64,000 nt of DNA from Halospina denitrificans. Lineage in GTDB: Bacteria > Pseudomonadota > Gammaproteobacteria > Pseudomonadales > Oleiphilaceae. Below the pieces are notes generated by a model. The model saw only the letters and a list, made by a program, of their open reading frames with translations, was not told the origin of the DNA and ran no database searches. Where the stretch lies: contig NZ_SOAX01000005.1 in the NCBI RefSeq assembly GCF_004364635.1, positions 124,001-188,000 on the forward strand, read 5' to 3'. The translations under genes and the position numbers were made by a program. Positions 14,956 to 45,882 of this stretch are shown here, one piece after another. Within the stretch, counting starts at the first letter, position 1, and the number at the start of each line of letters is the position of its first letter.

Positions 14956-15065
14956 GGGCGGAGCAGGGAGGCCTTTCCGGGAACCGCTATAAATACGTCC
15001 CTGTACGCTGCGCTTCGGCCATCCATGGCCTCAGAGCTTCCCGGAAAGGCCTCCCTGCTCCGCCC
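14956..15065. repeat. Large hairpin element, copy A (28-bp perfect arms, 54-nt core)
   Basis: The arm at 14956-14983 is perfectly complementary to 15038-15065 (28 of 28). The 54-nt core (14984-15037) contains two small hairpins: TACG-TCCC-TGTA at 14994-15005 and GGCCA-TCCA-TGGCC at 15017-15030. The same core occurs in three other copies in the window, while the outer arm sequences differ. It lies between the convergent stops of ttcA and hemN, 31 bp and 22 bp away. There is no T-run on either side. I do not recognise a named repeat family. Confidence 0.9.
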
Positions 15066-15087: not shown

Positions 15088-16479
15088 CTAGATAATCTTT
15101 GAAAATCGCTGCGACTGCGCCTGTTGGTGGGCGTCGAAGAGTTGGCAGATGGCCCGGATCAGGATTCGGCCCGGGGGGCGGACGTCGAGGCGGTCGGGGG
15201 TGTCCTGGAGGAGGCCGTCGGCTTCCATGGTGTTCAGGCTTTCGCGGCAGTCGGCGAAGTGGGTGTCGAAGGATTCGCCCCAGGTTTCCCGGAAGAGGTT
15301 CTTATCCACGGTGAAATGGCAGATGAGGGCCATGATGACCCAGCGGCGGAGTTCGTCCTCCGGGGTCATGGTGTAGCCTTTCTTGAGCGGATGCCGGTTG
15401 AAGTCGACTTCGAGTTCCCAGGCGGCCTGGTCGTGGTGGTTCTGGAAGTAGGCTTTTTCGGTCTGGCCGATGGAGGAGACGCCCATGCCGATGAGGTCGC
15501 AGTGGCCGTGGGTGGTGTAGCCCTGGAAGTTGCGGTGCAGTTCGCCGTTGCGCTGGGCAATGGCGAGGCTGTCGTCGGGGCGTGCGAAGTGGTCCATGCC
15601 GATGTAGACGTAGCCGGCTTCCAGCAGGCGGTTGATGGCGTCCTGGAGGATATCGAGTTTTTCCGCCGGTGACGGGAGGTCTTCCTGGCGGATCCGCTGC
15701 TGGGGCATGAAGCGGTCCGGCAGGTGGGCGTAGTTGAAGACGGAGAGCCGGTCCGGGAGCAGCGCGATGACCTGGTCCAGGGTTTCGCGGAAGGATTCGC
15801 GGGTCTGGTGGGGCAGGCCGTAGATGAGGTCCATGTTGATGGAGCGGAACCCGAGTTTTCTGGCTTCTTCCAGGCGGTTGGCAACCATTTCGTAGGGCTG
15901 GATCCGGTTGACCGCCTTCTGGACTTTCGGGTTGAAGTCCTGGACGCCCAGGCTGATGCGGTTGAAGCCGATTTCCCGCAGTACGGCGAGGGTGTCGGGG
16001 CCGCATTCGCGGGGGTCGATTTCGATGGAGTGGTCGCCGCTGTCGTCCGTCGCCAGGTTGAAGTTCTGGTGGAGCACGCCCATGAGTTCGCGCATTTCAT
16101 CGTGGCTGATGAAGGTTGGGGTGCCGCCGCCCCAGTGGAGCTGTAGTGACTGGCGTTCTGTTCCCCCGAAAAGCTGGGCTTTCATCTCGATTTCCCGGTA
16201 GAGGCGTTCGAGGTAGGGGGCGGCTTTTTCCCGCTTCTTGGTGACGATCTTGTTGCAGGCGCAGTAGTAGCAGAGGTGCGCGCAGAAGGGGATGTGGATG
16301 TAGAGCGACAGGGGGCGGTCGGATTGGCGGCTTTCGGTGGCGGCGGTTTCCAGGTCGCTGACGGTGAAGTCTTCGGTGAAGGACAGGGCCGTTGGGTAGG
16401 AGGTGTAGCGTGGGCCCGCCAGGTCGTAGCGCTGGATCAGGGATTCGTTCCAGAGCAGGTTGTTGCGTTCGGTCCCCAT
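15088..16479 (-). CDS. hemN: Oxygen-independent coproporphyrinogen III dehydrogenase HemN
   Basis: A 463-residue radical SAM enzyme that decarboxylates coproporphyrinogen III in heme synthesis without oxygen. The cluster motif Cys66-x3-Cys70-x2-Cys73 lies in HIPFCAHLCYYCACNK. GGGTPTF and the RYTSYPTA N-terminal motif are typical. The ATG at 16479 (MGTERNN) is preferred over an in-frame upstream start because a GGAG site precedes it. The gene sits downstream of the cbb3 cluster, as in Pseudomonas. An Anr-type box at 16671-16684 predicts low-oxygen induction, and the leader contains hairpin element B. Confidence 0.95.
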   Translation of the reverse strand: MGTERNNLLWNESLIQRYDLAGPRYTSYPTALSFTEDFTVSDLETAATESRQSDRPLSLYIHIPFCAHLCYYCACNKIVTKKREKAAPYLERLYREIEMKAQLFGGTERQSLQLHWGGGTPTFISHDEMRELMGVLHQNFNLATDDSGDHSIEIDPRECGPDTLAVLREIGFNRISLGVQDFNPKVQKAVNRIQPYEMVANRLEEARKLGFRSINMDLIYGLPHQTRESFRETLDQVIALLPDRLSVFNYAHLPDRFMPQQRIRQEDLPSPAEKLDILQDAINRLLEAGYVYIGMDHFARPDDSLAIAQRNGELHRNFQGYTTHGHCDLIGMGVSSIGQTEKAYFQNHHDQAAWELEVDFNRHPLKKGYTMTPEDELRRWVIMALICHFTVDKNLFRETWGESFDTHFADCRESLNTMEADGLLQDTPDRLDVRPPGRILIRAICQLFDAHQQAQSQRFSKII

Positions 16480-16508
16480 TGGCTTTCTCCGCACCGATTC
16501 ATTTCGCC

Positions 16509-16644
16509 ATCCAGTAACGGCGGGAGCGGGTGGGAGTATTGTCAGGGAAACGCTTTGAATACGTCCATGTACGCTGCGCTTCGGCCATCCATGGCCTCAG
16601 AGCTTCCCTGACAATACTCCCACCCGCTCCCGCCGTTACTGGAT
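16509..16644. repeat. Large hairpin element, copy B (41-bp perfect arms, 54-nt core)
   Basis: The arm at 16509-16549 pairs with 16604-16644 without a mismatch over 41 bp, the longest of the four copies. The core (16550-16603) is identical to copy A at 50 of 54 positions. The arms are unrelated to those of A except for the innermost GGGAA. The element lies upstream of hemN, ending 29 bp from its ATG, and its outer two bases are part of the predicted hemN -10 box. Confidence 0.92.
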
Positions 16645-16684
16645 TATATCCGTTTTGCAGTCAGGGGCTCTTGACCAAACTCAA
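16643..16684 (-). promoter_or_regulatory. Anr/FNR class II promoter of hemN
   Basis: On the minus strand TTGAGTTTGGTCAA (16671-16684) fits the FNR/Anr core TTGA-N6-TCAA with two inner-position differences. A perfect TATAAT lies at 16643-16648. If the start is seven bases below the -10 (near 16636), the box is centred at -41.5, the class II activation position. Transcription would begin inside the right arm of hairpin element B. Confidence 0.75.
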
Positions 16685-16692
16685 ACGCGTGG

Positions 16693-17388
16693 TCAGTGGC
16701 CGTGGAAAAGCTGCTGCACCATCGGGATGGTCCAGATGCCGAAAAGGATGAGGGCGATGCCCATAATGGAGCGGAAGCTGCGGGATTGGCGGAGTTCGGT
16801 GATGCGGCGGGCCAGGAGGCCAGTGGCGAGCATGGCGGGGAGGGTGCCGAGGCCGAAGAAGAACATGATCAGGGCTGAGTGGCCGGCGTTGCCCTGGGTC
16901 AGGGCCCAGGCGAGGGTGCTGTAGACGAGGCCGCAGGGGAGCCAGCCCCAGAGCAGGCCCATGGGGAGGGCGCGGGAGAGGCGGTCCACGGGCATGAAGC
17001 GTTGGGTCAGGGGGGCGATGCGTTGCCACAGGGGGGCGCTGATGTTTTCCAGGCGCATGACGCCCTGCCACCATTGGCCGATGGCCAGGCCCAACAGGAT
17101 CAGGATGATGCCGGCGATGGTTCTCAGGATCATACCGGCCGCGGGCGTGGCGTCGGTGAGGGCGGCGCCGGGGAGTCCGGCGAGCAGTCCGATCAGGGCG
17201 TAGCTGGTGATGCGGCCGAGGTTGTAACCGGCGAGGAGAGAGACCTGGCGGCGGCGGTAACCGGGGCCGACGGGCAGCGCCAGGCTCATGGAGCTGGCGA
17301 TGCCGCCACACATGCCCAGGCAGTGGGTGCTTCCCACCAGGCCTATGGCAAAGGCGGAGGCAAGGGTGGCGAGCAGGGATTCAGTCAT
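16693..17388 (-). CDS. Sulfite exporter TauE/SafE family (DsbD_2-like) membrane protein of the cbb3 cluster
   Basis: A 231-residue polytopic membrane protein with about six hydrophobic segments. The motif GSTHCLGMCGGI near residue 19 has two conserved cysteines, and WLPCGLVYS near residue 150 has another, as in DsbD-type membrane families often found beside ccoS. A role in copper or thiol handling during cbb3 oxidase assembly is inferred from context. The start overlaps the ccoS stop (ATGA), so the genes are translationally coupled. Confidence 0.8.
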   Translation of the reverse strand: MTESLLATLASAFAIGLVGSTHCLGMCGGIASSMSLALPVGPGYRRRQVSLLAGYNLGRITSYALIGLLAGLPGAALTDATPAAGMILRTIAGIILILLGLAIGQWWQGVMRLENISAPLWQRIAPLTQRFMPVDRLSRALPMGLLWGWLPCGLVYSTLAWALTQGNAGHSALIMFFFGLGTLPAMLATGLLARRITELRQSRSFRSIMGIALILFGIWTIPMVQQLFHGH

Positions 17389-42239: not shown

Positions 42240-42350
42240 GAGCGAGGGCGGGTGGTGCTTTCCGGGAATCGCCACGAGTACATCCCTGTAGGCTGCCCTC
42301 CGCCATCCATGGCTCCGGAGCTTCCCGGAAAGCACCACCCGCCCTCGCTC
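42240..42350. repeat. Large hairpin element, copy C (29-bp perfect arms, 53-nt core)
   Basis: The arm at 42240-42268 is perfectly complementary to 42322-42350 over 29 bp. The 53-nt core contains TACA-TCCC-TGTA at 42279-42290 and GCCA-TCCA-TGGC at 42302-42313, plus a self-complementary GCTCCGGAGC at 42312-42321. The core matches copy D at 52 of 53 positions. It lies between purB and roxA, both on the minus strand, 30 bp after the purB stop. Confidence 0.9.
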
Positions 42351-45767: not shown

Positions 45768-45882
45768 GTGGTTGTGAGCGGGGAGCCCTTTCCGGGAAGC
45801 TCCGGAGCCATGGATGGCGGAGGGCAGCCTACAGGGATGTACTCGTGGCGGTTCCCGGAAAGGGCTCCCCGCTCACAACCAC
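45768..45882. repeat. Large hairpin element, copy D (31-bp perfect arms, 53-nt core, inverted orientation)
   Basis: The arm at 45768-45798 pairs with 45852-45882 without mismatch (31 bp). The core (45799-45851), read on the minus strand, is identical to copy C at 52 of 53 positions. The outer arms share nothing with C beyond the inner CTTTCCGGGAA. It lies between nudJ and mnmA, 11 bp after the nudJ stop. Confidence 0.9.

Follow-up and report, generated by a model that had tools for sequence, protein, structure and literature searches.

Genes and features at the hemN locus

We analyzed a 64-kb stretch of the Halospina denitrificans genome (here, the window), in which hemN lies on the minus strand. 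The hemN product scores 591 bits against its family model, for which the cut-off is 325. Read along the minus strand, the order of features is the stop codon of a membrane-protein gene (16693), an Anr/FNR-type box, a TATAAT hexamer, a large hairpin (16644-16509), a GGAG upstream of the hemN start, and the hemN ATG (16479), with 29 nt between the end of the hairpin and the ATG. We refer to this hairpin as copy B; its coordinates, and those of the other features and related hairpins in the window, are given in Table 1.

Table 1. Features of the hemN locus and hairpin copies in the window
Feature	Position	Strand	Basis or remark
Anr/FNR-type box TTGAGTTTGGTCAA	16671..16684	minus	centered at -41.5 from the predicted start; same place relative to the -10 in related hemN loci
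Predicted -10, TATAAT	16643..16648	minus	final two bases coincide with the outer end of the hairpin
Predicted hemN transcription start	16636	minus	within the 5' arm; inferred from the -10 and the box spacing
Copy B 5' arm, 41-bp Watson-Crick stem, hemN sense	16604..16644	minus	repeat search and pairing
Copy B core, two small hairpins, loops AUGGAU and AUGGAC	16550..16603	minus	RNA fold and alignment
Copy B 3' arm, 41-bp stem	16509..16549	minus	repeat search and pairing
hemN, oxygen-independent coproporphyrinogen III oxidase, 463 aa from ATG	15091..16479	minus	TIGR00538
Copy A	14956..15065	minus	between the convergent 3' ends of ttcA and hemN
Copy C	42240..42350	minus	repeat search and pairing
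Copy D	45768..45882	plus	repeat search and pairing

Conservation of the hemN promoter

The box (TTGACCAAACTCAA at 16671-16684) is the sole match to TTGA-N6-TCAA in the 64 kb, where 0.72 would be expected by chance, and TATAAT occurs eight times compared to an expected 3.85. Taken alone, neither the box nor the hexamer is significant in a sequence of this length. Their arrangement is as the original prediction described it: direct reading of the minus strand places the TATAAT 22 nt past the box, the box center (16677.5) 41.5 nt from position 16636, itself 7 nt below the -10, and the last two bases of the -10 in the outer end of the hairpin. The hemN promoter has no match to a -35 element, as expected at a class II site.

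We compared this arrangement with a set of 80 related hemN loci from named genomes. An Anr/FNR box was found upstream of hemN in 44 of the 80, and in 40 of these 44 loci the best -10 lies 21 to 23 nt behind the box. The spacing of exactly 22 nt seen at Halospina hemN is shared with 30 of them, and in relatives the box lies at this spacing from a TAnnnT hexamer. In Halovibrio salipaludis and Vreelandella utahensis, whose HemN proteins are 75% and 74% identical to that of Halospina, respectively, the box is TTGACCGATATCAA, followed at 22 nt by TAGGCT, with 34 nt to the ATG. Since they are conserved with the same spacing before hemN in relatives, the box and the -10 are credible as promoter elements. 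Anr has hemN among its core targets in Pseudomonas, where the Anr/FNR class II promoters of the gene resemble the one described here in the box, the 22-nt spacing to the -10, and the lack of a -35 (PMC6588701). Their -10 is TAGACT or TAGGCT, whereas Halospina has the consensus TATAAT and, between the -10 and the ribosome site, a 136-bp hairpin. With both the relatives that share the box spacing and the Pseudomonas promoters in its favor, we regard the proposed Anr-type class II promoter of hemN as well supported, with position 16636 as a predicted start.

No hairpin was found upstream of hemN in H. salipaludis or V. utahensis. Three genus mates of Halospina have this same promoter arrangement at hemN and lack the hairpin, and a fourth, represented by a fragment, has the box and no hairpin within the stretch read. 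Box and ATG are 191 nt apart here and mostly 55 to 90 nt apart elsewhere; the difference is about the length of the hairpin, 136 nt. From these comparisons, the Anr promoter appears to be ancestral to hemN, and the hairpin is lineage-specific at the hemN site. None of the relatives compared has the hairpin at hemN, so control of the gene does not need it.

Structure of the leader hairpin

Direct reading and a repeat search both place the arms of copy B at 16509-16554 and 16599-16644, giving arms of 46 nt with 96% complementarity. Only Watson-Crick pairs occur in the outer 41 bp, and adding a G-U and a C-G pair brings the stem to 43 bp; the first small hairpin of the core contains a tandem G-A mismatch. 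The RNA fold of positions 16495-16660 on the minus strand has a free energy of -105.4 kcal/mol (z = -12.4), and 0 of 200 shuffled sequences folded as well, which places the hairpin far beyond chance. A fold of the transcript predicted to begin at 16636 leaves about 33 outer Watson-Crick pairs, with the first base paired; this agrees with the start inside the arm and the stem of about 33 bp in the leader that were originally proposed. Copy B is oriented such that both of its ANGGA loops lie on the strand transcribed for hemN.

A family of dispersed hairpins

We searched the genome with the core pattern CATGGATGG..TACANGGANGTA, using the reversed pattern as a control. The core pattern gave 78 exact matches, and the control gave none. 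A covariance model built from these 78 exact-core copies, with a cut of 44 bits and one strand counted per site, detected approximately 108 sites at or above 44 bits. All 78 copies have stems, ranging from 18 to 48 pairs (median 30), and a simple gene caller places 77 of the 78 in intergenic regions. Rough gene calls put approximately 22 of the 78 copies within 60 nt upstream of a co-oriented start; for members of this family, a place in a leader is therefore not unusual. The hairpin does lie in the predicted hemN leader, but it had not been recognized as one copy of a family of approximately 108 members with two ANGGA loops. Among the 78 copies, only copy B has an adjoining exact TATAAT.

The extreme fold, and a start that would fall inside the arm, are what one might expect if the hairpin were a dedicated leader device that delays polymerase or gates hemN translation. 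Like hairpins at approximately 107 other places, a ribosome site outside the stem, and the hemN genes of relatives that have no hairpin all argue against such a device, which we consider extremely improbable. The hairpin is not hemN-specific; it is one of approximately 108 dispersed copies.

According to the simple gene caller, 58 of the 77 intergenic copies have a stop codon no more than 60 nt before them, and copy B is 48 nt after the stop at 16693. On this basis, copy B could be a 3'-end element of the upstream membrane-protein gene, ending or trimming its transcript and belonging to the hemN leader by overlap only. However, the conserved hemN promoter sits between that stop codon and the hairpin, and an intrinsic terminator was rejected as a candidate: there are 0 terminator-like sites in 16400-16800, including any with a T run at copy B, and T runs are missing from the flanks of the family. 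A role of this kind is therefore very unlikely. Among copies between co-directional genes, 24 are in the sense and 17 in the antisense orientation, and this weak strand bias is the strongest point against a role of the family that is borne by mRNA alone. The site of copy A, near the other end of hemN, has no hairpin in Halovibrio.

The family is abundant in Marinobacteraceae. Most genomes of a large genus in the same bacterial family contain dozens of copies, and the covariance model has matches in 24 further families of Gammaproteobacteria. We inspected the loops of class-wide matches in nine distant genomes and in a set from the same bacterial family, and two (A)NGGA loops were kept in the matches inspected. 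In a viral collection, one stretch contained the core pattern and had no covariance-model support, and we found nothing relevant in the literature on such repeats in Marinobacter. Two proposals about the nature of the repeat were rejected. A promoter carried by the hairpin would predict -10-like hexamers at the 5' end of the copies, and these are not enriched (2 near versus 7 farther, in equal windows). For an IS-type or protein-level origin, a comparison of arms between copies showed no shared arms. We also observed that GCACNRA occurs within the first few bases past the 3' arm in approximately one-quarter of the 78 copies, far above background. In addition, some hairpins form inverted pairs a few hundred bases apart (L062 and L161; L027, L170, L187, and L196), and these are kept as pairs between species.

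Likeness to known RNA and repeat classes

The best Rfam match on the hemN sense strand is TwoAYGGAY (RF01731), for which copy B scores 40.7 bits compared to a gathering threshold of 43. That threshold was reached by 0 of the 20 loci tested, and the other copies scored 29.8 to 34.1 bits. Two features that mark members of RF01731 are present: two AYGGAY terminal loops (AUGGAU and AUGGAC in copy B) and an outer stem held by pairing rather than by sequence. The likeness also includes the tandem G-A mismatch in one hairpin, a long and poorly conserved outer stem, and occurrence in gammaproteobacteria, whereas the hairpins described here differ in their sub-threshold scores, their shorter interior, and their presence in more than 100 copies per genome. 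We know of no function of RF01731 that has been tested since 2010.

RF01731 shares an Rfam clan (CL00106) with CsrB (RF00018). The CsrB/RsmB-type RNAs resemble the family in carrying GGA in hairpin loops; however, CsrB is one multi-site small RNA, whereas the hairpins here are dispersed and have two sites each and a long stem. One longer copy (L220:131-295, minus strand) has at least three GGA hairpins on one stem and is nearer to a CsrB-type multi-site RNA. The family can also be compared with ERIC, REP/BIME, and MITE-type repeats, which are likewise short, intergenic, dispersed inverted repeats with many copies. In those families the arm sequence is common to the copies, whereas the outer stem here is unrelated between copies, with an identity equal to that expected from composition.

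Conserved loops and CsrA

Two loops keep (A)NGGA in all 124 distinct copies while the flanking pairs covary; a model built from GGA-bearing copies favors such copies, and the neighboring positions vary under the same bias. In these 124 sequences, the first loop reads ANGGA or AGGA and its stems covary, and the second is always ANGGA, with the following base free and with closing pairs that alternate among UAC/GUA, UCC/GGA, and CCC/GGG.

The CsrA consensus obtained by SELEX is RUACARGGAUGU, in which ACA and GGA are always kept, and two CsrA sites lie 10 to 63 nt apart, with an optimum of >18 nt (PMC7652899). In copy B, GUACAUGGACGU matches this 12-mer at 10 of 12 positions, and the two GGA motifs are separated by 21 nt, which falls within the range for paired sites. 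The genome contains nine perfect RUACARGGAUGU sites, eight of them in the hairpin family. It also encodes a CsrA of 57 residues that is near-identical to a solved CsrA homologue. The two models searched for small RNAs of this type, CsrB and PrrB/RsmZ, had no match in the genome. CsrA binding has been proposed for TwoAYGGAY from motif matches (PMC4333381). Given that ANGGA loops are a hallmark of CsrA/RsmA sites, we infer that the hairpins may be bound by CsrA.

Evolution of the stem

In copies with identical cores, outer-stem identity is 0.458, compared to 0.456 predicted from composition. Because copies with the same core have unrelated outer stems, it appears that the whole hairpin was not simply copied around or that the stem was rewritten fast. 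Covariation in the stem is 0.475, versus 0.122 in shuffled and no more than 0.100 in slid controls; double changes occur in 18 of 18 outer pairs, and 96.8% of the outer stem is paired.

We identified 25 orthologous positions between species, at which both flanking genes match and the orientation is the same; 17 of them include a copy from the Halospina genome. When the two most closely related species are compared, without correction for shared ancestry, both partners have changed in 18 stem pairs and a single partner in 9, of which 6 belong to one degraded copy. Transversions, for which a G-U intermediate is impossible, make up half of the double changes. The orthologous double changes fit template switching from one arm to the other, which has been put forward as a general process in RNA hairpins (PMC8794818). 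Orthologous stems whose two arms change together would also serve well as bacterial data on template switching as the keeper of RNA stems. Wobble pairs inside the stems are asymmetric on the sense strand, with 28 G-T and 2 A-C, which suggests that the strand with the AYGGAY loops has been kept foldable under selection; copying at the DNA level alone would be insufficient to produce this asymmetry unless mutation is itself strand-asymmetric. Copying from one arm to the other at replication, together with selection on the sense strand, probably maintains the pairing of the stem.

Two observations concern individual alignments. L158 and L189 share an orthologous stem and have different core subtypes, as if cores had been exchanged between copies. 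In alignment A3, columns 11-13 and 25-27 and their partners form a 3-by-3 GGA/GGA purine internal loop in place of base pairs, and some subtypes have this loop in the outer stem as well as in the first small hairpin.

These patterns bear on whether the hairpin is simply a neutral or selfish repeat that landed behind the hemN promoter, with no role at hemN and with loops kept by the process that spreads or converts the copies. The hairpin is lineage-specific at the hemN site, there are approximately 108 copies without a strong strand preference, and the cores look homogenized within the genome while the stems differ, all of which would be expected of such a repeat. However, 17 copies have stayed at the same place and in the same orientation as in genus mates despite long divergence, the loop motif is invariant while neighboring positions vary, and G-T far exceeds A-C in the stems. 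We therefore hold a neutral repeat to be possible, if somewhat unlikely.

Predicted consequences for hemN expression

The explanation that we favor, with a probability of approximately 0.6, is that a dispersed hairpin of the CsrA-binding type, similar to TwoAYGGAY, was placed behind the ancestral Anr promoter of hemN. One copy of the family would have come to lie just behind that promoter, in the orientation that puts both loops in the hemN message, and under low oxygen Anr would start transcription inside the 5' arm. In general, decay that depends on the 5' end is slower when that end is paired, and RNase III is drawn to long perfect duplexes. Decay of this kind may be hindered in a hemN message that begins with its 5' end in a helix, and the duplex would be a substrate for RNase III. 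A CsrA dimer could bridge the two loops, such that each hemN message would carry a CsrA site. Because the ribosome site is 29 nt past the stem and is not covered by the hairpin, simple occlusion of that site would not be expected. With a paired 5' end, a duplex, and a tip at which bound CsrA would stay clear of the ribosome site, the hairpin would most likely act on the stability of the message and on the titration of CsrA, not on initiation.

A broader proposal is that the family constitutes a dispersed layer of CsrA control, in which approximately 108 two-site mRNA modules replace or supplement CsrB-type small RNAs and RNase III frees CsrA-binding fragments; the hemN copy would then couple CsrA availability to oxygen via Anr. 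We regard this proposal as speculative and doubtful. The large covarying set, the restriction of the loops to ANGGA, and a strand identified by wobble asymmetry make the CsrA idea testable. The hemN copy offers a single promoter-leader case for comparing the same RNA in the presence and absence of the hairpin.
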